Source of the DNA: Clostridia bacterium
GTDB taxonomy: Bacteria; Bacillota; Clostridia; TANB77; RGIG9151
Direction: 5' to 3'
Assembly (NCBI GenBank): GCA_017934955.1
Contig: JAGBIO010000030.1
Span: forward strand, 1-35,438
Length of the DNA stretch: 35,438 bases
Below are positions 3,719 through 35,438 of this stretch, one piece after another (position 1 is the stretch's first letter; each line of letters opens with the position of its first letter). The position numbers were made by a program, and so were the translations under genes. Below the pieces are notes generated by a model, which saw only the letters and a list, made by a program, of their open reading frames with translations, had not been told where the DNA came from and searched no databases.

Positions 3719-4791
3719 GAAAAGTAGCAATATTAACAGGCGGTGGCGATTGCCCGGGATTAAATGCAGTCATCAGAGCAATTACAAAAACAGCAATTAC
3801 AAAATATAATTTGGATGTAATCGGTTATGTGGATGGATACAGAGGGTTTGTGGAAAACAGATGGAGACCGATTACTTTAAACGATGTAGAGGATATTTTA
3901 GATAAAGGCGGTACTATTTTAGGAACTTCCAACAGCGATAATCCGTTTAAGTTCTTAAAAACAAGAGATTCAGAGCCTGTGGATATGTCGGATATTTGTA
4001 TTAAACAAATGAAAGATTTGGGTGTGGACTGTTTATTTGTTGTCGGCGGAGACGGCACATTAACTTCCGGAAGAGATTTCTCAAGAAAAGGATTCCCTGT
4101 TATCGGAGTACCGAAAACAATTGATAACGACTTAAATGCAACTGAAGTAACATTTGGTTTTAATACAGCGGTTACCAATGCGGTAGATGCTATGGACAAG
4201 TTAAAGACAACCGCAGAATCGCATAAGAGAATTATGTTGGTAGAAATTATGGGACGTTATGCCGGATGGTTAACGTTGGAAACCGGTATTGCAGGCGCTG
4301 CGTCAGCAATTTTGCTTCCGGAAATTCCGTATGATTTAGATAAATTGTGTGACTTCTTAAAGGAAAAGACAGAAAATGGTCAGAAATATTGTATGGTAGC
4401 GGTATCGGAAGGTGCGAAACCGAAAAACGGGGAAGTAACAATTAGCAGAATCGTAGGCTACAGTCCGGATTCCGTAAGGCTTGGCGGTGTTTCCAATAAA
4501 TTGGCTCGTGAAATCGAAGAAAAAACAGGAATCGAAACCCGTGCCACGGTTTTAGGTCATATTCAAAGAGGCGGACAAACTTCCGCTTATGACAGAGTAT
4601 TGTCAACAAAATATGGCGTAAAAGCGATGGAACTTGCGATGGAAGGAAACTTCGGAAAGATGGTTGCGATGATAGACGGAAAGGTAAGTTATACAACATT
4701 AGAAGAAGCAGTGGGACAATTAAAGAACGTGCCGGTAGATTGTGATTTGGTTCAAACGGCTAAGAGTATGGGAGTTTATTTCGGAGAGTAG
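3715..4791 (+). CDS. pfkA: 6-phosphofructokinase
   Basis: This 358-residue enzyme phosphorylates fructose 6-phosphate at the committed step of glycolysis. It shows the N-terminal nucleotide loop TGGGDCPGLN (8-17), GGDGT (111-115), PKTIDND (133-139) with the catalytic Asp, and MGRYAGW (179-185). In this family Gly after GGD favours ATP, whereas Asp there marks PPi enzymes. Lys in place of Gly in PKTIDND is shared with PPi enzymes and with the 'group III' PFKs. The combination therefore suggests an ATP-using group III enzyme, though phosphoryl-donor use must be assayed. At 358 residues it is longer than the ~320 of the classical enzyme. The start overlaps the previous stop, and AGGAGG lies just upstream. 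Confidence 0.95.
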   Translation: MRKVAILTGGGDCPGLNAVIRAITKTAITKYNLDVIGYVDGYRGFVENRWRPITLNDVEDILDKGGTILGTSNSDNPFKFLKTRDSEPVDMSDICIKQMKDLGVDCLFVVGGDGTLTSGRDFSRKGFPVIGVPKTIDNDLNATEVTFGFNTAVTNAVDAMDKLKTTAESHKRIMLVEIMGRYAGWLTLETGIAGAASAILLPEIPYDLDKLCDFLKEKTENGQKYCMVAVSEGAKPKNGEVTISRIVGYSPDSVRLGGVSNKLAREIEEKTGIETRATVLGHIQRGGQTSAYDRVLSTKYGVKAMELAMEGNFGKMVAMIDGKVSYTTLEEAVGQLKNVPVDCDLVQTAKSMGVYFGE

Positions 4792-4910
4792 GACAGCATG
4801 AATGCTGTCCGTACAGAAAAGAAGAGGTACGAAGAGAGTGGACAGCATGAATGCTGTCCGTACAGAAAAAAAGAGGTACAAGCAATGTAGGGACCCCATT
4901 TATGGTGTCC
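4791..4910. repeat. three palindromic repeats between pfkA and ruvB
   Basis: Two copies of GGACAGCATGAATGCTGTCC (4791-4810 and 4840-4859), each followed by GTACAG, precede a third palindrome of another word, GGACCCCATTTATGGTGTCC (4891-4910), preceded by GTAG. The first copy starts on the last base of the pfkA stop codon. No other terminator is apparent after pfkA, so these hairpins may stand in for one. Confidence 0.8.
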
Positions 4911-5932: not shown

Positions 5933-6868
5933 ATGGAGAAAGTTATTTTAGAGGGAGTTGCCCAACAGCCGGAAACGGTACGAACTTTTTTGAAAAATCA
6001 ATGGGAGTTATCCGAACGCTTATTAAGAAAATTAAAACTTAATAAGCGTATTTTGTGTAACGGAAAAGAAATCTGGGTGAATGAAATTTTAAATCCGGGA
6101 GATAAAGTACAGGCGGATATTTCTTTTGAGGAAACGAATGACGAGATTTTAGCGGAAGAACAGCCGTTGGAGATTTTATATGAAGATGCCTGTTTGCTGA
6201 TTTTGAATAAGCCTGGAAATATTGTGGTCCATCCGACCTGCCTGCATCCGACCGGAACGCTTGCGAATGGCGTGAAGGCTTACTTAGAAGGAAAAAAGGA
6301 ACATATTTTAACGCGATTTGTGAATAGATTGGATCGAGAGACTTCCGGTGTGATCGTGTTTGCGAAAAATGAATATACGCAGGAAATTTTGGCGAAGCAG
6401 ATGCAGAAGAAGGTGTTTGAAAAGGAATATATCGCCGTTGTAAACGGTGTTATTTCGGAAGATTCCGGAACAATTGATTTCCCGATAAAAAGGGCGCCGG
6501 ATAGTATTATGCTTCGTATGACGGCAACGGACGGAGAAGAAGCGATTACGCATTTTGAAGTAGTGCAACGTTTTTCGAAATATACGGTTCTTCGGTTGCG
6601 TCTTGAAACGGGAAAAACGCATCAAATTCGTGTGCATTGCAAAGCCATCGGGCATCCGATTGTGGGGGATGGGTTATATGGTGAAGAGAAAACGGAGTTG
6701 ATTGGAAGGCAAGCATTACATGCTGAAAAAATTCGCTTTCTTCATCCGATTACAAAGGAGAAATTGGAGATTACGGCGAAATTACCGAAAGATATGGAAG
6801 AATTAATTGCAAGATTGACTTTTGAGGAAAAAATGGACAGCATGAATGCTGTCCGTACAACCACATAG
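5933..6868 (+). CDS. RluA/RluD-family pseudouridine synthase
   Basis: This 311-residue enzyme isomerises uridine to pseudouridine in rRNA or tRNA. An S4-like N-terminal domain (roughly residues 14-65) precedes the catalytic domain, which carries the signature NRLDRETSG (131-139) with the catalytic Asp at 134. RTKTH-like substrate-binding sequence appears as ETGKTHQIRVH. The last 11 residues (MDSMNAVRTTT) and the stop are encoded by a palindromic repeat at 6835-6854, so the natural C-terminus appears replaced or extended by repeat sequence. Which RNA site it modifies cannot be told from this sequence. Confidence 0.92.
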   Translation: MEKVILEGVAQQPETVRTFLKNQWELSERLLRKLKLNKRILCNGKEIWVNEILNPGDKVQADISFEETNDEILAEEQPLEILYEDACLLILNKPGNIVVHPTCLHPTGTLANGVKAYLEGKKEHILTRFVNRLDRETSGVIVFAKNEYTQEILAKQMQKKVFEKEYIAVVNGVISEDSGTIDFPIKRAPDSIMLRMTATDGEEAITHFEVVQRFSKYTVLRLRLETGKTHQIRVHCKAIGHPIVGDGLYGEEKTELIGRQALHAEKIRFLHPITKEKLEITAKLPKDMEELIARLTFEEKMDSMNAVRTTT

Positions 6869-6936
6869 AGAGTAGGGACAGCATTTATGCTGTCCGCACC
6901 ACACCATAGAAGGTAGGGACAGCATTTATGCTGTCC
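6835..6936. repeat. three palindromic repeats at the end of the pseudouridine synthase gene
   Basis: Palindromes lie at 6835-6854 (inside the coding region), 6876-6895 and 6917-6936. All carry the word GGACAGCAT, and the last two are preceded by GTA. They fill the gap before rsmB. Confidence 0.8.
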
Positions 6937-6971
6937 ATTGAATAAGCAGTCAGTAAAATAGGGAGGAATTT

Positions 6972-8312: not shown

Positions 8313-8555
8313 GTTACAATTCAGACTTAAATTTATAGAAATAGCACAAACACTGTAGGGACAGCATTCGCGGACGTAACATCATGAACGAAGTGAATGG
8401 CTTGTACGTCCTGTACAAAGAAACTCCAAGAACGAAGTGATTGGAAAGTTTTGACTGCTATGCTGTCCGCAGAAAAGGCGGAATGAAGGACAGCATGAAT
8501 GCTGTCCCTACAAGGCTTTAGCGAAAATAATAAGTTGTTAAGTTTGAATAGTAAC
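8313..8555. repeat. MITE-like element, word GGACAGCAT, with ~90-bp internal insertion
   Basis: The ends GTTACAATTCAGACTTAA (from 8313) and its near inverse, ending GAATAGTAAC (8555), enclose two palindromes. The left palindrome is split at its centre by ~90 bp starting CGCGGACGTAAC. That insert holds two stem-loops with the same loop, GAACGAAGTGA. An almost identical insert splits the left palindrome of the element at 11397. A solitary palindrome of the same word follows at 8568-8587. Confidence 0.82.
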
Positions 8556-11820: not shown

Positions 11821-12630
11821 ATGAAGGCAACAACTGAGATGGAGCTCAAGGTATCCGGTGGTCGTATTCTTTCGGCAGAGGTGAAAGATGGTATTTGCAG
11901 ACTGCTGATTGAAGTGGTGGAAGAAAAAGTGGAACCGACTCCTGCTGTGAAGGAAACAGAGTGTGTTTCTGTTGCAAAGGAAGACGACGACCTTTTTGTA
12001 TGCATCAAGGCATCGGAATTGAGTCTTATTGACGAGTTCATGCAGCATCGACCGAAGAGCGAGAAAGAGCGGATTCTCAAAGGTCGGCTGAAAGATGTGA
12101 TTCTGAAAAGGATTGATGACTTCTGGCGTCCGAGAATGGATCCGACTCTCGATGAAGCGGAGAATATCTGCTTCAAAGCAGGAAAGGAACCGGCGGTAGG
12201 CAGGTCTTACAACTGGTGGCATGAAAACGCTAAGAAGTATTGTCCCAAGCGTAAAAGCCGTCTCGGAACCAAGTCTCAGTACGTCGCGTTTCTCGGTGTG
12301 TTGATTAAGACACTTGTTGACGAGGGATGGACGGTGGATGAGGCTTGGGATGCGGTGTGCAACGACTCTAAGAAGTTGGGGCATTACAGGAATTCCGAGA
12401 ATGCGAGGTACGATTTCGAACCTACCGGTTCGAGCGCAATTGCGGGTTTCTACGACCTCGTTAATACCTGCAAAATTTTGGCGGAAGATGAAGAAACCGG
12501 CGGGTTCTGGCTTGTGGGTGGTTGCTATTTCAATTTTAGCAGCAACCATCCGCTTGCTGATTTGGGTCATTACATCGACGGCTGTAATTACGACCTCAAC
12601 AATGGCGTTGGTTGGCTTGTGCTTTCTTAA
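11821..12630 (+). CDS. putative DGR target protein 1 (C-type-lectin-like variable C-terminus)
   Basis: This 269-residue protein has no signal peptide. Residues 1-45 are divergent from its tandem paralogue at 12926, residues ~50-225 are almost identical, and residues 237-262 are highly different. The variable patch lies between FWLVGGCY and VGWLVLS at the C-terminus. This is the position and style of variable regions in DGR targets with a C-type lectin fold (compare GGSW...GFR endings). Most codons in the patch end in C or T (AAC, AGC, CAT, TAC, GAC, GGC), as expected if AAY codons were diversified at adenines. The segment LGTKSQYVAFLGVLIKTLVD is the conserved core. AGGAGG precedes the ATG. 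G/C-richer codons than neighbouring housekeeping genes. Family assignment is by pattern, not by a database search. Confidence 0.7.
   Translation: MKATTEMELKVSGGRILSAEVKDGICRLLIEVVEEKVEPTPAVKETECVSVAKEDDDLFVCIKASELSLIDEFMQHRPKSEKERILKGRLKDVILKRIDDFWRPRMDPTLDEAENICFKAGKEPAVGRSYNWWHENAKKYCPKRKSRLGTKSQYVAFLGVLIKTLVDEGWTVDEAWDAVCNDSKKLGHYRNSENARYDFEPTGSSAIAGFYDLVNTCKILAEDEETGGFWLVGGCYFNFSSNHPLADLGHYIDGCNYDLNNGVGWLVLS
12529..12606 (+). other. candidate DGR variable region in protein 1
   Basis: These 26 codons are flanked by GGTTGCTAT and GTTGGTTGGCTTGTGCTTTCT, both identical in the paralogue. Where they can be aligned, substitutions fall at codon positions 1 and 2, with one at position 3 by my hand count. 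Confidence 0.55.
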
Positions 12631-12688
12631 AGTAGCACTGTTCACTGAACACTGCCTTCGAAAAAAGTGCGAGTAAAATCGTGAGAGG

Positions 12689-12724
12689 AGAACTTTGATT
12701 TTTTTCAAGGTTCTTCTTTTTTTT
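12689..12724 (+). terminator. Rho-independent terminator after variable protein 1
   Basis: AGAACTTTGA pairs with TCAAGGTTCT (two G-T pairs) and is followed by a T-rich run. The same structure follows the paralogue at 13781. Confidence 0.8.
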
Positions 12725-12816
12725 GACAAACTTCTTCCTTCTTGAAAGTAATTTCAAGTAAACATTAAATGAAAACATATGTGTTAGTAGGAAGCCGAAT
12801 ACATGTATGTTTTTTA

Positions 12817-12845
12817 TTGCAAAATTATCTAATCTATGGTAGAAT
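12817..12845 (+). promoter_or_regulatory. SigA promoter for variable protein 2
   Basis: TTGCAA (12817-12822) and TAGAAT (12840-12845) are spaced by 17 bp. The leader resembles that of variable protein 1. Confidence 0.75.
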
Positions 12846-12925
12846 AATAGACGACAACTAAATATGTAACTCTAAGGAGCAGTTTGTTCCTTTAACAAAT
12901 TCCGAACAAATTTAGGAGGAAAAAT

Positions 12926-13723
12926 ATGAGTAAGATGGTAAGTATGAAGCTTCCGGCCGGACAGATTAAGAGCCTTAAGATGCTGGATGACGGTACTTAT
13001 GAGGTTATCCTTGAAGTGGCGGAAGAGACAGTGGAAACGATTCCTGCTGTGAAGGAAACAGAGGTTGTTTCTTTTGCAAAGGAAGATGACGACCTTTTTG
13101 TATGCATCAAGGCATCGGAATTGAGTCTTGCTGACGCATTCATGCAGCATCGACCGAAGAGCGAGAACGAGCGGATTCTCAAAGGTCGGCTGAAAGATGT
13201 GATTCTGGAAAGGATTGATGACTTCTGGCGTCCGAGAATGGATCCGACTCTCGATGAAGCAGAGAATATCTGCTTCAAAGCGGGGGAGAAACCGGCGGTA
13301 GGCAGGTCTTACAACTGGTGGCGTGAAAACGCTAAGAAGTATTGTACCAAGCGCAAAAGCCGACTCGGAACCAAGTCTCAGTACGTCGCGTTTCTCGGTG
13401 TGTTGATTAAGACACTTGTTGACGAGGGATGGACGGTGGATGAGGCTTGGAATGCGGTGTGCAACGACTCTAAGAAGTTGGGGCATTACTGGAATTCCGA
13501 GAATACGAAGTACGATTTTGAACCTACCGGTTCGAGAGCAATTGCGGGTTTCTACGACCTCGCCAATACATATAAGATTTTGGCGGATGATGATGTCGGC
13601 AGGTTCTGGCTCGCGGGTGGTTGCTATCATGGTAGCGGCAACAGTCCGCTTGCTGGTTTGGGTCATCTCTACCAGTGTTTTGACTGCCTCAGCAATAGTG
13701 TTGGTTGGCTTGTGCTTTCTTAA
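12926..13723 (+). CDS. putative DGR target protein 2, tandem paralogue
   Basis: This 265-residue protein parallels the gene at 11821 from its leader through its terminator, so the pair arose by tandem duplication. Core residues ~50-225 differ at few positions, mostly through synonymous changes. The N-terminal ~40 residues and the C-terminal patch (residues 235-258, between FWLAGGCY and VGWLVLS) differ strongly. The patch is two codons shorter than in protein 1, which implies an indel or a different template. ATG follows AGGAGGAAAAAT. Known DGR targets act as diversified ligand-binding proteins. No role can be given here, and no export signal is visible. Confidence 0.7.
   Translation: MSKMVSMKLPAGQIKSLKMLDDGTYEVILEVAEETVETIPAVKETEVVSFAKEDDDLFVCIKASELSLADAFMQHRPKSENERILKGRLKDVILERIDDFWRPRMDPTLDEAENICFKAGEKPAVGRSYNWWRENAKKYCTKRKSRLGTKSQYVAFLGVLIKTLVDEGWTVDEAWNAVCNDSKKLGHYWNSENTKYDFEPTGSRAIAGFYDLANTYKILADDDVGRFWLAGGCYHGSGNSPLAGLGHLYQCFDCLSNSVGWLVLS
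13628..13699 (+). other. candidate DGR variable region in protein 2
   Basis: These 24 codons correspond to 12529-12606 in protein 1. Nearly all variable codons end in a pyrimidine (CAT, GGT, AGC, GGC, AAC, TAC, GAC, TGC); one CAG is the exception. Confidence 0.55.
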
Positions 13724-13780
13724 AGTAGCACCGGTCACTGAATACTGCCTTCCCAAATCGCTGAGTAAAATTGCGAGAGG

Positions 13781-13814
13781 AGAACTTTGATTTTTTCAAG
13801 GTTCTTCTTTTTTT
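13781..13814 (+). terminator. Rho-independent terminator after variable protein 2
   Basis: AGAACTTTGA and TCAAGGTTCT form the stem, followed by CTTTTTTT. It is nearly identical to the terminator at 12689. The remaining sequence to 13909 is AT-rich, with nothing recognised. Confidence 0.8.
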
Positions 13815-16543: not shown

Positions 16544-18199
16544 ATGTCTACTACTGAGTATAGAAGGAATCAGGCCCCTCATAATCAGCGTAAGAACGGC
16601 AAGGGAAAGGGCATTCTTGCCTTTTTGCTTGTAATCGTGATGCTGATTTGCATTCTCCTCCTTCTGAGGGGATGCACGCAGGAAGATTACCGTACGGAGT
16701 ATGAGCAGGTGCTTGCGGAGCGTAACGCTCTGCAGGCGCAGCTGGATGCTGCCGGAAGCCCGGAAGAGATGGCTGCGCTTGAAGCGCAGATTGCTTCCCT
16801 CAACGGAACGTTGGGAGAGCTGACGACGAAAGTCGATTCTCTTTCCACGAGAGTGGATGAGATGAACACCAAGCTGGATACTCTGCTGACGCAGAAGGCA
16901 GATGCAGAGACGGCGTTGGAAAATGCCACTTCTCCTGAGGAGATGGTAGCTTGCCAGGCGAAGTTGGATGAAATCCTTGAGGCGATTAGAACCGGATTTA
17001 CCTGTCACTGCACTTGCATGTGTCAGGCGATGACGGTGAGCGCGGACGGATGCCTGCACTGCCCCATTCATTGTCCTGTAGAGGACGATGGATGCCGGCA
17101 GTGCCCGATCCACTGCCCGACTGTAACGCCGACCGCGGAACCGACTGCAACGCCGACCGCTGTGCCGACGAGCAATCCGACGGCAGCCCCGACGAGCAAT
17201 CCCACTTCTGTGCCGACGAAGGCACCGACTTCTGCGCCGACGAAGGCACCGACTTCTGCGCCGACGAAGGCACCGACTTCTGCGCCGACGAAGGCGCCGA
17301 CCGCTGCGCCGACGAAGGCACCGACCGCTGCGCCGACGAAGGTACCGACTCCGGTTCCGACGAAGGCACCGACTCCGGTTCCGACGAAGGCACCGACTCC
17401 GATTCCGACGAAGGCTCCTACGCCGGTTCCGACTACTCCTGTTTATGAGGACGACGAACCCGGTAAGCCGGAGAAGGATGAGTCAAACTATGATGACTCC
17501 AATACCGGTAGTCCTGTGAAGGATGAGTCAAACTATGATGATTCCAATACCGGTAATCCTGTAAAGGATGAGTCAAACTATGATGACTCTAATACCGGTA
17601 ATCCGGTTCGTGACGGGTCGGAGTATGATGATCCGAATACCGGCAAACCGGTAAAGGACGAAGCTTCGTACGACGATACCGATACGGATACGTCAGAAAA
17701 AGATGAATCTTCGTACGACGATACCAATCCGGATACGTCGGAGAAGGACAACTCGGAGTATGATGACTCCGAGCTTCCTGCTCCGGTGACGGAGAACTCC
17801 GTTCCGGTGTCGAAGGAAACTTCGACGCTGGTGATTGTCGTAGAAGATGCCAAGGCTTCTTCCTCTGTGGTAGAAGATGATTCCGTCCCTGCCCCTGTGG
17901 TGGAGAAGGAAAAATCCGCTCCTGTGGCGGAAGCACCTGCTCCTGTGGCGGAAGCACCCGCTCCTGTGGCGGAAGCGCCCGCTACTGTGGCGGAAGCACC
18001 TGCTCCTGTGGTGGAAGCGCCCGCTCCTGTGGCGGAAGCACCTGCTCCTGTGGCGGAAGCACCTGCTCCTGTGGCGGAAGCACCTGCTCCTGTGGCGGAA
18101 GCACCTGCTCCTGTGGTGGAAGCGCCCACTCCTGTGGCGGAGCAGAATGAAGTTGTTTATGACGACTTCGATGAGCCGGCTCCGGTTCCGGTAAATTGA
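16544..18199 (+). CDS. membrane-anchored coiled-coil protein with Cys/His cluster and three tandem-repeat regions
   Basis: This 551-residue protein belongs to no family I know. Residues ~25-46 form a membrane helix ending in RGC. Residues ~47-145 are a heptad-like coiled coil. A Cys/His-rich knot follows (CHCTCMC, HCPIHCP, QCPIHCP). Then come three low-complexity regions: Pro-Thr repeats of APTKAPTS type, seven 15-residue repeats of DESNYDDSNTGNPVK type, and seven-residue EAPAPVA repeats. The architecture suggests a stalk reaching from the membrane through the cell wall. AGGAGGTATAAT precedes the ATG. Codon use is G/C-rich, like the gene at 557, which shares the PTATP linkers. Confidence 0.8.
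   Translation: MSTTEYRRNQAPHNQRKNGKGKGILAFLLVIVMLICILLLLRGCTQEDYRTEYEQVLAERNALQAQLDAAGSPEEMAALEAQIASLNGTLGELTTKVDSLSTRVDEMNTKLDTLLTQKADAETALENATSPEEMVACQAKLDEILEAIRTGFTCHCTCMCQAMTVSADGCLHCPIHCPVEDDGCRQCPIHCPTVTPTAEPTATPTAVPTSNPTAAPTSNPTSVPTKAPTSAPTKAPTSAPTKAPTSAPTKAPTAAPTKAPTAAPTKVPTPVPTKAPTPVPTKAPTPIPTKAPTPVPTTPVYEDDEPGKPEKDESNYDDSNTGSPVKDESNYDDSNTGNPVKDESNYDDSNTGNPVRDGSEYDDPNTGKPVKDEASYDDTDTDTSEKDESSYDDTNPDTSEKDNSEYDDSELPAPVTENSVPVSKETSTLVIVVEDAKASSSVVEDDSVPAPVVEKEKSAPVAEAPAPVAEAPAPVAEAPATVAEAPAPVVEAPAPVAEAPAPVAEAPAPVAEAPAPVAEAPAPVVEAPTPVAEQNEVVYDDFDEPAPVPVN
17120..17440 (+). repeat. tandem repeat encoding Pro-Thr-Lys stalk
   Basis: Repeats of about 12 and 24 bp based on CCGACGAAGGCACCGACT encode PTKAPT units. 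The unit is almost unchanged between copies, so copy number may vary between strains. Confidence 0.85.
17477..17791 (+). repeat. seven 45-bp repeats encoding DESNYDDSNTGNPVK
   Basis: Seven 15-residue units occur; the first three are nearly identical and the later four diverge. Units are very acidic with conserved YDD. Confidence 0.85.
17918..18141 (+). repeat. 21-bp repeats encoding EAPAPVA
   Basis: About ten copies of GCTCCTGTGGCGGAAGCACC-type units encode Ala-Pro-Val-Glu repeats near the C-terminus. Confidence 0.85.
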
Positions 18200-18283: not shown

Positions 18284-18437
18284 GGGACGTCGAGGACGCC
18301 GTCCCCTACAATGATGGCACAATCATCGTACGGACAGCATTTATGCTGTCCACAGAAAAGGCAGAAAGCCGGACAGCATAAATGCTGTCCGTACAATGGT
18401 TGCACCATCGTTGTAGGACGATACAGTTTGACCTGTA
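18284..18437. repeat. palindromic repeat cluster, mixed words
   Basis: A G/C-rich partial palindrome (18284-18305, GGGACG...CGTCCC, followed by CTAC) is followed by two GGACAGCAT-word palindromes at 18332-18351 and 18371-18390. A terminal CTGTAAC (18433-18439) resembles the element end seen at other loci. Confidence 0.7.
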
Positions 18438-18668: not shown

Positions 18669-21600
18669 ATGAGAACTGTAATAAGAAAATTAACTTTAAT
18701 TGTATTAACAGTATCTTTATTATGTGTAACAGCGTTTGCTGCAGATAATACGGCACCGGCGCTGACTATGAGCGAAGAAAGCGGTAGTACTTTAGAAGGA
18801 GGTTCGCCGATTACTTTAACGGTGGAAGATGAAAATAAAGTTTCCGAGTTAACGTATTATTGGAAAGGCGGCTCAGAGACGGTAAAAAATCCGAATACCA
18901 ATAAAGTTACCGTTAATTTAAGAGTAGGAACCCAAGCAGGAAAGTACGTATTTTGCGTAAATGCGGTAGATTCTGAAGGAAACAGCACGGGTGAAAAATC
19001 CTATATTTATTATGTAGCATCTACCGATGAAGAAGCACCGGCGCTGACTATGAGCGAAGAAAGTGGTAGTACTTTGGAAGCAGGATCACTTGTTACCCTA
19101 ACGGTAGAAGATGAAAGTAAAATTTCTGAAGTGAACTATTATTGGAAAGGCGGAACAGAAAAGACAATTACACCGAATACCAATAAGGTTACGGTTAATT
19201 TAAGAGTGGGAACGCAAGCCGGAAAATATATTTTGTATGTAAACGCAGTTGATGCAGAAGGAAATGCTACCGGGGAGAAGGCTTATACTTACTATGTGCC
19301 ATCTACTGATGAGGATGCGCCGGAAATAACCGTTAGTGAAGAGAGCGGAAGTACATTAGCAGGCGGTACGCAAATTGTTGTGAATGTTAGTGATGAAAGT
19401 AAAATTTCGGAAGTGAAATATTATTGGAAAGGGAACAGCGAAAAAACACTGACACCAAATACCAATTCGATGAAATTAACGTTAAGCTTAGGTACTCAAA
19501 GCGGAAAATATGTTTTATATCTCCGAGCAACCGATGCCGAAGGAAATGATACCGGAGAGAAAACATATATATATTATGTAGCAGCAGAAGACGGAGAAGC
19601 ACCGGTTATTACGCTTAACAAGGAAAGCGGAAGCACATTGCCGGGCGGAACAATCATTAATGTAAAAATTGAAGATGAAAGTAAAATTGCGGAAGTTACA
19701 TACAACTGGGCAGGAAATACAGAAAAAGTAATTACGCCGAATACCAATACCGTAAATTTAAATTTAACTTTAGGAACGCAAGGCGGAAAATATATCTTAT
19801 ATGTAACAGCGAAAGATGCAGAAGGAAACAGCACCGAAAAACAAGCTTATACTTTCTATGTAGAGAGTGAAGATAAGGATGCACCGGCGATTACGGTAAC
19901 CCCAAAAGATGGAGCTACGGTAGCCGGAGGAAGTGCCGTTGCGGTAAGAGTAGAAGATGAAAGCAAAATTTCAAAAATTACATACAACTGGGCAGGAAAT
20001 ACAGAAAAAGCAATTACTCCGAATACAAATATTACAACTTTGAATTTGAAGGTAGGAACACAAAGCGGGAAGTATATTTTATACGTAACAGCGGAAGATG
20101 AGAAAGGAAACAGCACCGAAAAACAAGTTTATACATTCTACGTAGAGGGTGAAGATAACGAAGCACCGGTAATTACAGTAACTCCGGAAAACGGAGCTAC
20201 GGTAGCCGGAGGAAGTGCCGTTACAGTAAAAGTAGAAGATGAAAACAAAGTTGCGGAAGTGGCGTATTACTGGGCAGGAAATACAGAAAAAGTAATTACG
20301 CCGAATACGAATATTACAACTTTGAATTTGAAGTTAGGAACACAAGGTGGAAAATACATTTTATATGTAACGGCAAAAGACTCCAAGGGAAACAGTACCG
20401 GAAAACGAACATACACATTTTATGTGGATGCGGAAGATAATGAAGCGCCGGTTATTACAGCAAGTGAAAAAGACGGAAGTATATTACCTGCCGGAGCAAA
20501 AATTGTATTAAAAGCAAGCGATGACGGTAAAATTGCTGAATTGAAATATCAGTGGTCCGGATTGAGTGAAAAGACATTAAATCCGTACACAAACGATGTA
20601 ACCGTTAATTTGGTTTTGGGTACAGAACCGGGAAAATATATCTTAAAAGCATCTGCAAAGGATGATAGCAACAACAGCAACAGTGAAGTATTTACCTTCT
20701 ATGTGGATGGTGATAATGAAGCTCCTACAGTAACCGTAAGCCCTAAGGGTGGAAGTACGGTAGAAGCAGGCGATATTGTCGTAGCAATTCCGGAAGATAA
20801 TGAAGCTTTAAGTAAGATTGAATATTATTGGGATAACAATACACCGCAATCGAAAAATATTTCGGGAACTTACGTAAGAGTAGATATGCCGGCTGTTCCT
20901 GAAAAAGCCGGAGAACACATCTTACATGTAAAAGTAACCGATGCGGCAGGAAATACCACCGATTGGAAAACTTATACATACTATGTAAAAGCCAATGAAA
21001 ACGAATTCCCTACGATTTCGGTTAATCCGGAACACGGAAGCACAATTACACCGGATGACGATGTAAAAGTAACGGTAAAAGACAAAGAAGGATTAGCAGA
21101 AATTGAATATGCCTGGGATAATGATACTCCGGTTGCAAAGGCAATCAGCGGTACAGAAAAAACCTTAACCATGCCAAGTATTCCAAATAAACCGGGAAAA
21201 CATACGTTGCATGTTACGGTAACCGATGAAGATGGAGCTGTTACTGTAAGCGATTTTGATTTCTATGTACCGGAAGAAGACGATGAAGCTCCTACCATTA
21301 CAATGAATCCGGTAAGTAAAACAACAGTAGTTGGTGGTAAGATTATTAAGGCAACCTTAAGAGATAATGTTGAACTTGAAAAAGTAGAATATTACTGGGA
21401 TGACGACGATGCTGAAACAAAACTGTTGAGCGGTGCGTTAAAAACCATTTCATTACCTGCGATTTCTAAGAAACCGGGAACTTATTATATGCACATTAAA
21501 TTAACAGACGCTGCAGGAAATACAACCGGCTGGGAAAAACATATTTATTATGTGGAAGATGATGACGACGGAGATGGAGAAGATCCGGAAGTGTTCGCAG

Positions 21601-22931
21601 ATCCGGATGGCGGAGATGTAGAATACGGCGACAGAATTACCTTATGGGCGGAGGACAAAGACGGTATTGAATATATCGAATATTATTGGGATGATGACGA
21701 TGATGATACAACAATAAAGTATAGCGATGAATTTACCGTAAAAGTACCTTCTGACGAAGGAAAACATTATTTATATGTAAGAGCAATGGATGAAGTAGGA
21801 GATATGTGCGGATGGGAAAGATTTGTTTATAACATTGAAGAAAACAACTATCCGGGCAACCCTGATATTACAGGCGATGTTAATAAGAGAGTAAAAAATG
21901 TAAGAGTAGAAATCAGAAATGCAGACGATAAGATTAAATTCGAACCGGAAGAAGAAATTTTATACTACGTAGATTATTATAACGGAAGTTCTTCTAAGTT
22001 AACGAATGCAAAATTAGTAGTAGATTTACCGACTTATTTAGAGGCTAAAAAAGCAAGTGACGATGGTAAGATTACAACAAAACAAGTAACTTGGTCTCTT
22101 GGCACATTAAAAGCGGGCGAATCCGGGAGAGTATCCTTTAAGGCAGAATATACCAGTGATAAGTACAATGAGAAAATCATTACGGTACCGGCTAAGATTT
22201 ATTCCGGTTCTTCCTTAAAAGACACTTCAACCGTAAGAAACTTGATTTATTGTGATGACGGAACAGGAACAGGATTCCATTCTGCCTACTGTATCGGATA
22301 TCCGGATGGTTCTTTTAGAGCAAACGGTAACATTACAAGAGCAGAACTTGCGCAAATGATTGCGAATATTGAAGGTTTAAGAGGTACTTACAGAGGTCAA
22401 TTTAGCGATGTTCCGAAGGATCACTGGGCGGCTTCTGCCATCCAAGCATGTGTCGATAAAGGGTATGTTTTATCGGTAGGATTTAACAATTTTGCTCCGG
22501 AACGTCCTGCAACAAGAGGCGAATTAGCATATGCAATTGCTGCGGCTTTGGGCGTACAGGACTTAGAACCGATTTTCATTGCTTCCTCTGATTTGGAAAA
22601 CAGTGATTTCAGATGTTCTATGGAACAATTATTAAGACTTGGAATTATGGATGGTTACTCTAACGGAACAGCAAGACCAAATGCAAGTATTACAAGAGCA
22701 GAAGCGGTTACAATTATCAATAACTACTTGTTCCGTGGCGAATTAATTGTTTCCGGTTACGGTTATGGTCATACTTATAATTATGATACAAACTATAATT
22801 ACGGTGGAAACGGCACAGTATTATCCTTTACGGATTTATCTACCGGTCACTGGGCATATGGCCATATCATGGAAGCAACAAACAATCATAAGTATGAAAG
22901 AATTTTGGATGGAAATGAAAGAATGTTATAA
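18669..22931 (+). CDS. large SLH-anchored cell-surface protein with 11 Ig-like repeats
   Basis: This 1420-residue protein has a signal peptide (residues 1-24) ending in TAFA. Eleven beta-rich repeats of roughly 95 residues follow, each opening like APxITxSEESGSTLxGG and closing on YxxYV. A DUF11-like domain follows (about residues 1080-1190). Three SLH-type motifs at the C-terminus (YPDGSFRANGNITRAELA, FAPERPATRGELAYAI and ARPNASITRAEAVTII) should bind secondary wall polymer. Repeats 4-6 are the most alike, which suggests recent expansion or conversion. A final SLH-like fragment (FTDLSTGHWAYGHI) is incomplete. The protein is probably an S-layer or adhesive surface component. It has its own promoter and terminator. 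Confidence 0.88.
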   Translation: MRTVIRKLTLIVLTVSLLCVTAFAADNTAPALTMSEESGSTLEGGSPITLTVEDENKVSELTYYWKGGSETVKNPNTNKVTVNLRVGTQAGKYVFCVNAVDSEGNSTGEKSYIYYVASTDEEAPALTMSEESGSTLEAGSLVTLTVEDESKISEVNYYWKGGTEKTITPNTNKVTVNLRVGTQAGKYILYVNAVDAEGNATGEKAYTYYVPSTDEDAPEITVSEESGSTLAGGTQIVVNVSDESKISEVKYYWKGNSEKTLTPNTNSMKLTLSLGTQSGKYVLYLRATDAEGNDTGEKTYIYYVAAEDGEAPVITLNKESGSTLPGGTIINVKIEDESKIAEVTYNWAGNTEKVITPNTNTVNLNLTLGTQGGKYILYVTAKDAEGNSTEKQAYTFYVESEDKDAPAITVTPKDGATVAGGSAVAVRVEDESKISKITYNWAGNTEKAITPNTNITTLNLKVGTQSGKYILYVTAEDEKGNSTEKQVYTFYVEGEDNEAPVITVTPENGATVAGGSAVTVKVEDENKVAEVAYYWAGNTEKVITPNTNITTLNLKLGTQGGKYILYVTAKDSKGNSTGKRTYTFYVDAEDNEAPVITASEKDGSILPAGAKIVLKASDDGKIAELKYQWSGLSEKTLNPYTNDVTVNLVLGTEPGKYILKASAKDDSNNSNSEVFTFYVDGDNEAPTVTVSPKGGSTVEAGDIVVAIPEDNEALSKIEYYWDNNTPQSKNISGTYVRVDMPAVPEKAGEHILHVKVTDAAGNTTDWKTYTYYVKANENEFPTISVNPEHGSTITPDDDVKVTVKDKEGLAEIEYAWDNDTPVAKAISGTEKTLTMPSIPNKPGKHTLHVTVTDEDGAVTVSDFDFYVPEEDDEAPTITMNPVSKTTVVGGKIIKATLRDNVELEKVEYYWDDDDAETKLLSGALKTISLPAISKKPGTYYMHIKLTDAAGNTTGWEKHIYYVEDDDDGDGEDPEVFADPDGGDVEYGDRITLWAEDKDGIEYIEYYWDDDDDDTTIKYSDEFTVKVPSDEGKHYLYVRAMDEVGDMCGWERFVYNIEENNYPGNPDITGDVNKRVKNVRVEIRNADDKIKFEPEEEILYYVDYYNGSSSKLTNAKLVVDLPTYLEAKKASDDGKITTKQVTWSLGTLKAGESGRVSFKAEYTSDKYNEKIITVPAKIYSGSSLKDTSTVRNLIYCDDGTGTGFHSAYCIGYPDGSFRANGNITRAELAQMIANIEGLRGTYRGQFSDVPKDHWAASAIQACVDKGYVLSVGFNNFAPERPATRGELAYAIAAALGVQDLEPIFIASSDLENSDFRCSMEQLLRLGIMDGYSNGTARPNASITRAEAVTIINNYLFRGELIVSGYGYGHTYNYDTNYNYGGNGTVLSFTDLSTGHWAYGHIMEATNNHKYERILDGNERML

Positions 22932-25789: not shown

Positions 25790-25932
25790 TTACAATTCAG
25801 ACTCAAATTTATAGAGAAGGCACAAACAATGTAGGGACAGCATTCATGCTGTCCACAGAAAAGCAGGACAGCATAAATGCTGTCCGTACAAGGCTTTAAC
25901 GAAAATAATAAGTTGTTAAGTCTGATCAGCAA
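25790..25932. repeat. MITE-like element, word GGACAGCAT
   Basis: The left end GTTACAATTCAGACTCAA (25790) and a degraded right end (AAGTCTGATCAGCAAT) enclose palindromes at 25835-25854 and 25866-25885. It has the same plan as the 8313 element but without the internal insertion. It follows spoIIE directly. Confidence 0.8.
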
Positions 25933-28918: not shown

Positions 28919-28959
28919 AACGATATAGTACTAATTTTATGATGTTTCTAACTTTGTAG

Positions 28960-29017
28960 GGACACAATTTATTGTGTCCACGTCAGAAATTAGAAGCGGA
29001 CACAATAAATTGTGTCC
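28960..29017. repeat. pair of palindromes, word GGACACAAT
   Basis: Palindromes at 28960-28979 and 28998-29017 are flanked by GTA and CTAC in inverted orientation, forming one larger inverted repeat. The outer GTTAC ends are not evident. Confidence 0.8.
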
Positions 29018-31044: not shown

Positions 31045-31288
31045 GTTCATACTCAATGTCATTAAGTTAAGAATTGAATTATTAAACTCTACCTAAATAA
31101 AGGCAGAAACTTGTTGTAGGGACACCATTCATGGTGTCCAAGGAATAGGCAGAATAACATTCATTTCCTCTAAAGAAATATACGTAGAGTTAGGACAGCA
31201 TAAATGCTGTCCCTACAAACAATTAGAAATAAAAAATACCAGGGAAATGAATTAGATAAGTTCTAAACTTTATGACATTGAGTAGAAC
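31045..31288. repeat. MITE-like element with two different palindrome words
   Basis: The ends GTTCATACTCAATGTCAT (31045) and ATGACATTGAGTAGAAC (31272-31288) are inverted. Inside are GGACACCATTCATGGTGTCC (31120-31139) and GGACAGCATAAATGCTGTCC (31193-31212). The left interior matches the element at 11397 over ~70 bp. This full-length copy mixes words. Confidence 0.8.
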
Positions 31289-34940: not shown

Positions 34941-35438
34941 ATGAAGCAGGTTGTTGAACTGAATAACGGTGTTAAGGTGGAGATTTCTTCGGAAACGGGT
35001 ATCAAAGTTACTTCTGTTTCCGGGAAGCAGGTGTGCTTTGACCAGTGCGGCAATTTACTTTCTGAAGAGAAGGCAACGACGGAACAGTCTTCCCGGCTGA
35101 AATATTTCTGCCTGATGGGGAAGGAAGAGCGTGAAGATGTTCGGCAGTGGCTGTCCGACGTAGCTTCTAAAACGAAGAAACAGGCGGACTTCCTGAAGAT
35201 CGTGGGAGAGGCGCTTACGGCTATCGACTACAACTATCGGATTGTGACAATCGAACCGTCGTGGGATGACAGCCAAAGGCTGTTCTATATGAACGGTGAG
35301 AAAGTAGCAAGAGGACTCAGCTGTCGTGAATGGAAAGCCAAGTGCAAGAAATTTGCGCCTGAGTGGGATTCTGACCTTGCTAACCTGTACGAACTCTTCC
35401 TCTGGTACGGGTACCGGATTGCGAAGAGGTTGTGGACT
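34941..35438 (+). CDS. unrecognised protein, N-terminal part only (runs off the window)
   Basis: The first 166 codons are present and the frame is open at the window end. The start at 34941 follows AAGGAGGATGT. Residues ~1-40 look like a small beta-rich segment (VVELNNGVKVEISSETGIKV), followed by a helical region (about 55-85) and an aromatic, Trp-rich region ending EWDSDLANLYELFLWYGYRI. No signal peptide is present. Codon use is G/C-rich, and the gene has a perfect promoter and long leader, like the two DGR-like genes. It may be another target of the same kind, but the decisive C-terminus is outside the window. Confidence 0.7.
   Translation, partial: MKQVVELNNGVKVEISSETGIKVTSVSGKQVCFDQCGNLLSEEKATTEQSSRLKYFCLMGKEEREDVRQWLSDVASKTKKQADFLKIVGEALTAIDYNYRIVTIEPSWDDSQRLFYMNGEKVARGLSCREWKAKCKKFAPEWDSDLANLYELFLWYGYRIAKRLWT

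Follow-up and report, generated by a model that had tools for sequence, protein, structure and literature searches.

Tandem genes with hypervariable C-terminal patches in a Clostridia genome as probable targets of a diversity-generating retroelement

The window, that is, the whole 35,438-nucleotide stretch of DNA analysed here, is contig C18 of a 1.57-Mb genome assembled into 35 contigs at 99.7% completeness. It carries two tandem genes (open reading frames 11821-12630 and 12926-13723), the location of which in the first-pass annotation was confirmed, and the beginning of a third gene of the same family. Both tandem genes are very probably targets of a diversity-generating retroelement (DGR), with an adenine-mutagenised C-terminal patch. 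The parts of the locus are listed below.

11821-12630, forward strand: putative target gene 1, 269 amino acids, assigned to a DGR variable-protein family from order-wide homologues and an AlphaFold model
12523-12606, forward strand: variable region (VR) of gene 1, a 28-codon patch with NNY pattern that surrounds an invariant Pro-Leu-Ala (PLA) motif
12607-12647, forward strand: conserved VR 3' end (VGWLVLS) of gene 1, with a GTGCT-loop-AGCAC hairpin (12618-12637) and CACTG direct repeats (element 12632-12647)
12671-12722, forward strand: terminator-like stem and T run behind gene 1, repeated behind gene 2 (repeat family D15; by eye)
12926-13723, forward strand: putative target gene 2, 265 amino acids, tandem paralogue of gene 1
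13622-13699, forward strand: 26-codon VR patch of gene 2
13700-13740, forward strand: conserved VR 3' end, hairpin and CACTG element (element 13725-13740) of gene 2
13763-13814, forward strand: terminator-like stem and T run behind gene 2 (repeat family D15; by eye)
34941-35438, forward strand: 5' part of a third family gene (B-type), truncated before its VR by the contig end

Between codon 50 and the patch, the two genes share 153 of 184 codons, in keeping with the near identity first described for this part; the differences had been called mostly synonymous, but 21 are non-synonymous and 10 synonymous. The patch is now delimited at 28 and 26 codons instead of 26 and 24. Within it, 13 of 30 aligned codons are changed, with a non-synonymous to synonymous ratio of 13:0, compared with 31 of 184 codons upstream (p=0.002; this and the other patch p values assume independent codons or comparisons, which is only roughly true). 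The one-codon indels noted earlier lie one on either side of the PLA motif, and the last seven codons are indeed the same in both genes. A bias of the patch changes towards codon positions 1 and 2 had also been reported, and it is real, although the counts of about 11 and one did not stand: with the best gap placement, positions 1-2 account for 19 changes and position 3 for 2 (20 and 3 with the MAFFT gap placement as given), against 19 and 17 upstream (Fisher p=0.004). The third base differs in 2 of the 13 changed patch codons. That nearly all variable codons end in C or T also holds across four close paralogues, whose variable columns contain 83 such codons out of 87 vs 379 out of 797 upstream (p=2e-20). 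Among these paralogues, the third base is retained in 74 of 96 comparisons with a change at position 1 or 2, compared with 47% when third bases are shuffled, and none of 5000 shuffles reached the observed level; for the window pair taken alone, retention is 11/13 (p=0.004). The patch pattern corresponds to the AAY-to-NNY signature that adenine mutagenesis leaves.

In the genome as a whole, eleven genes or fragments of the family were counted, three of them truncated at contig ends, and two of the fragments might be parts of one gene. Those other than the tandem pair of the window are located as follows.

C13:13336 and C13:14479: tandem family genes
C23:33996 and C23:34955: tandem family genes
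C23:79582: single family gene
C23:9051: single family gene
C11 end, C32 start and window end (34941): family fragments

The diversified patch is common to this whole paralogue set and extends beyond the window pair. In the eight genes that carry the 3' element, 157 of 168 patch codons (93%) end in C or T, and in C23:79582 and C23:9051, both without the element, the figure is 15/21 each. In a tree built without the patch, the members of each tandem pair are sister genes, and patch divergence would therefore have come after duplication. The tandem duplications would have arisen in the own lineage of this genome, followed by divergence centred on the patch, although gene conversion of the flanks may also account for the sister pairs. 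Adjoining C23:79582 lies a gene for a 378-aa Flg_new (Listeria-Bacteroides repeat) protein (L005:2628-3761, reverse strand), the C-terminus of which has a lectin-like look with a serine/glycine/asparagine-rich patch, and which is possibly a further surface binder.

No significant match to Pfam or NCBIfam was found for the window proteins, and none to Pfam for the truncated third gene (34941-35438); the family is previously unnamed. Of 385 sampled genomes of the order, 63 contain homologues, and three relatives of the same order have a complete DGR consisting of a family target, Avd, reverse transcriptase (RT) and adenine-rich template. The first of these cassettes, L130 (CAMXOP010000027.1, from an uncultured Clostridiaceae MAG; same locus as L210), includes a template repeat (TR) reading GGNYNNNGNNYPLADVNSVNNPNNEYNNSMGWIVL, which differs from the target patch by 11 mismatches over 127 bases, 10 of them on template adenines. 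Its target is akin to the A-type genes of the window, and the patch of gene 1 aligns codon for codon to its template repeat except for one inserted codon. In L207, which the tree places with the B-type genes of C23, two targets flank a single Avd-RT-TR, with 15/16 and 12/13 mismatches on template adenines, and in the single cassette of L208 the corresponding value is 12/14. The Avd and RT of the cassettes exceed Pfam cut-offs, and the L130 Avd resembles NCBIfam DivGenRetAVD, marginally under the cut-off. As a positive control, FGE-type cassettes from other parts of the order yielded canonical TR/VR pairs in the same scan. Template-target adenine mutagenesis in these three relatives is evident at the level of sequence. 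Since the homologues are targets of complete DGRs, the window proteins are homologues of DGR targets identified by sequence, and the proposal of the first-pass annotation that the genes are putative DGR targets is strongly supported. The order is rich in DGRs generally, with DGR-RT profile matches in 193 of the 385 genomes, and its FGE-type targets (L094-L107) show clean changes limited to template adenines.

Behind the patch, a conserved 3' element is found. With one mismatch allowed, GTAGCACNGNNCACTG occurs eight times in the genome, always directly behind family genes, vs zero occurrences of a reversed control pattern, and the element also trails the VRs of L130, L207, L101 and others. Of 27 element-bearing genes, 17 have an exact GTGCT-loop-AGCAC hairpin, compared with none in shuffles, and the stop codon is frequently located inside the loop; in L130 and L207, TR/VR identity stops at the 5' arm of the hairpin. 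The case for the hairpin rests on conservation, because folding of the region as single-stranded DNA was not significantly better than that of shuffles (free-energy z-scores). The mean share of C/T-ending patch codons is 92% in genes with the element vs 75% in those without (p=1e-5, kinship ignored). The hairpin and the CACTG repeats, situated immediately downstream of the patch, probably label the gene as a recipient.

An AlphaFold2 model of window gene 1, made with 22 relatives, reached a pLDDT of 81.7. Among PDB structures, Foldseek ranked the Thermus aquaticus DGR variable protein (5vf4) first, a weak match (E 0.009, prob 0.91; TM 0.22-0.29, 13% identity), followed by the FGE-fold enzymes EgtB/OvoA, with Treponema denticola TvpA at rank 8; the second viral fold match is a phage protein named sulfatase-modifying-factor-like. 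A PDB search by sequence gave no match, the Thermus protein included, and sequence profiles gave no C-type-lectin/FGE-like or Ig-like match for the variable domain. The fold matches are weak yet consistent with a lectin/FGE-like fold, and the proteins probably adopt a C-type-lectin/formylglycine-generating-enzyme-like fold displaying about 20 variable residues for putative binding. By eye, no secretion or lipoprotein signal is evident.

Together, these observations suggest a process in which an error-prone DGR reverse transcriptase, with Avd, would copy an adenine-rich template RNA, and the cDNA would take the place of the C-terminal patch of the target gene. AAY codons of the template would turn into NNY codons with no change to the third base or the flanks, the hairpin and CACTG repeats serving as the probable recipient mark. 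The same process is likely to have made the window patches, acting after the tandem duplications. Counterpoints to a DGR origin are provided by the one-codon indels in the patch, which would be unexpected from a single template, by the third-base differences in two of the 13 changed codons of the pair, and by the weakness of the fold match (E 0.009, TM 0.29-0.42).

The components of such a diversifier are missing from the data. In the 35-contig, 99.7%-complete assembly, no DGR RT was found with RVT_1 and an order-specific DGR-RT profile, no Avd with a bAvd search, and no template copy, the reconstructed template peptide having matched target genes only. An RT elsewhere had been proposed to serve the pair, which is unproven; a genome lacking both RT and template had also been named as speaking against a DGR, and neither was found in the assembly. 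Either the diversifier has escaped assembly or it has been lost. A technical cause of the gap is possible because three contig ends lie inside family genes, and for the same reason the assembly appears to have been broken by the family itself. A loss of the RT-Avd-TR cassette, which would leave orphaned targets with patches frozen from past mutagenesis, shares the DGR origin and differs on present activity. It is a credible reading, though not the favoured one. It is supported by the absence of RT and Avd in all three genomes of the family, including the two closest relatives, G001 (same genus) and G002 (same family), in both of which neither was found; an RVT_1 match in G001 (L076, G001:C1 3-3362) was set aside as a 1119-aa endonuclease-RT frame of eukaryotic LINE-like character in a bacterial MAG, probably contamination as judged by eye. 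Moreover, a DGR-RT-profile match (E<=1e-30; own tally) is lacking in 28 of the order's 63 target-bearing genomes, G038 holds a cassette in decay, and T. denticola isolates with targets but without RT or TR have been published (PMC4891356). However, the eight element-bearing genes keep a sharp signature and an intact 3' element, unlike the targets of G001 and G002, which have no 3' element and only 63 of 105 patch codons ending in C or T, as expected were the mutator long gone, whereas the targets of the genome studied here look fresh; in addition, the assembly is incomplete exactly at family genes. On balance, an RT and template on unassembled or unbinned DNA of the strain are considered somewhat more likely than a recent loss.

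Other explanations depart further from DGR targets resident in a cellular genome. If the genes were prophage or plasmid genes encoding phage receptor-binding proteins, the many phage-borne DGRs (PMC8144416) would offer a parallel, but the neighbours in the window are chromosomal housekeeping genes by sequence, and no relative was found in IMG/VR (profile), 50,697 phage records or 72,556 plasmids, so this reading is highly improbable. Likewise, the 21-base conserved 3' end had no match in IMG/VR and the window proteins none in PHROGs; 25 viral matches to a VR-core pattern in IMG/VR were attributed to chance by context and profile search. Slightly less probable still are ordinary paralogues whose binding patch diverged by positive selection with no retroelement involved. 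The exclusively non-synonymous patch changes and an assembly without a retroelement would fit such selection, which, acting on amino acids, leaves unexplained the conserved third base of variable columns, the near absence of A/G-ending codons and the common 3' element; moreover, complete DGRs surround homologous genes. With DGR targets as the preferred reading, the roughly ten scattered, predicted hypervariable binding proteins could even depend wholly in trans on a DGR off their own chromosome, for example on a shared mobile element, or represent a fixed receptor repertoire after mutator loss, which is considered unlikely.

Scattered targets with a C-terminal VR and a lectin/FGE-like fold (here predicted, from weak matches) recall the TvpA-type DGR of T. 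denticola (PMC4891356; 2y3c), in which two to seven scattered targets per genome are described (PMC4891356). Those targets are of FGE-sulfatase type and often lipoproteins, whereas the window family is without a Pfam match, reaches up to eleven copies and lacks a lipoprotein signal by eye. Many targets in a single cellular genome are also known from Thiohalocapsa PB-PSB1, with 15 targets and nine DGR loci, where in-trans diversification of incomplete loci was proposed (PMC10907252); several targets there have NTPase or conflict-system domains, while no such domain was found here and no RT is in the assembly. As in BPP-1, whose retrohoming needs its hairpin, an inverted repeat immediately follows the VR, located where TR/VR homology ends or past that point (PMC3240598). 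The phage hairpins, however, combine GC-rich stems of 7-10 bp with a GRNA tetraloop (PMC3240598), in contrast with the shorter, 5-bp GTGCT/AGCAC stem, 6-10 nt loop and CACTG direct repeats of the present family, in which TR/VR homology ends at the 5' arm. The Thermus aquaticus variable protein (5vf4) is the closest PDB fold, with no sequence homology by search.

The DGR target repertoire would gain one unannotated protein family, of which one small, gut-type Clostridia genome can carry about eleven members in an assembly without an RT. Metagenomic DGR surveys by their own account miss remote targets because only RT-adjacent DNA is inspected (PMC8144416). Such remote targets may be traced without an RT by means of the NNY signature of the patch together with the 3' element, two simple markers that separate live-looking from eroded targets.

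Elsewhere in the window, a short intergenic palindrome, (GTA)GGGACAGCATNNATGCTGTCC, occurs in more than ten copies, for example at 336-375, 4791-4879, 6835-6956, 8488-8527, 18305-18417, 25816-25905, 28941-28997 and 31101-31232. Paired variants that keep the palindrome were observed (GGACACAAT..ATTGTGTCC and GGACACCAT..ATGGTGTCC), and an Rfam scan of the window, palindrome included, gave no match. A low-complexity protein is encoded at 16544-18199, with 24-nt and 21-nt tandem repeats (TKAPTxAP, VAEAPAP). The frame at 18669-22931 contains six repeat units of 282 nt and encodes a surface-type protein of 1420 aa, at the C-terminus of which S-layer-homology-like motifs were seen by eye.
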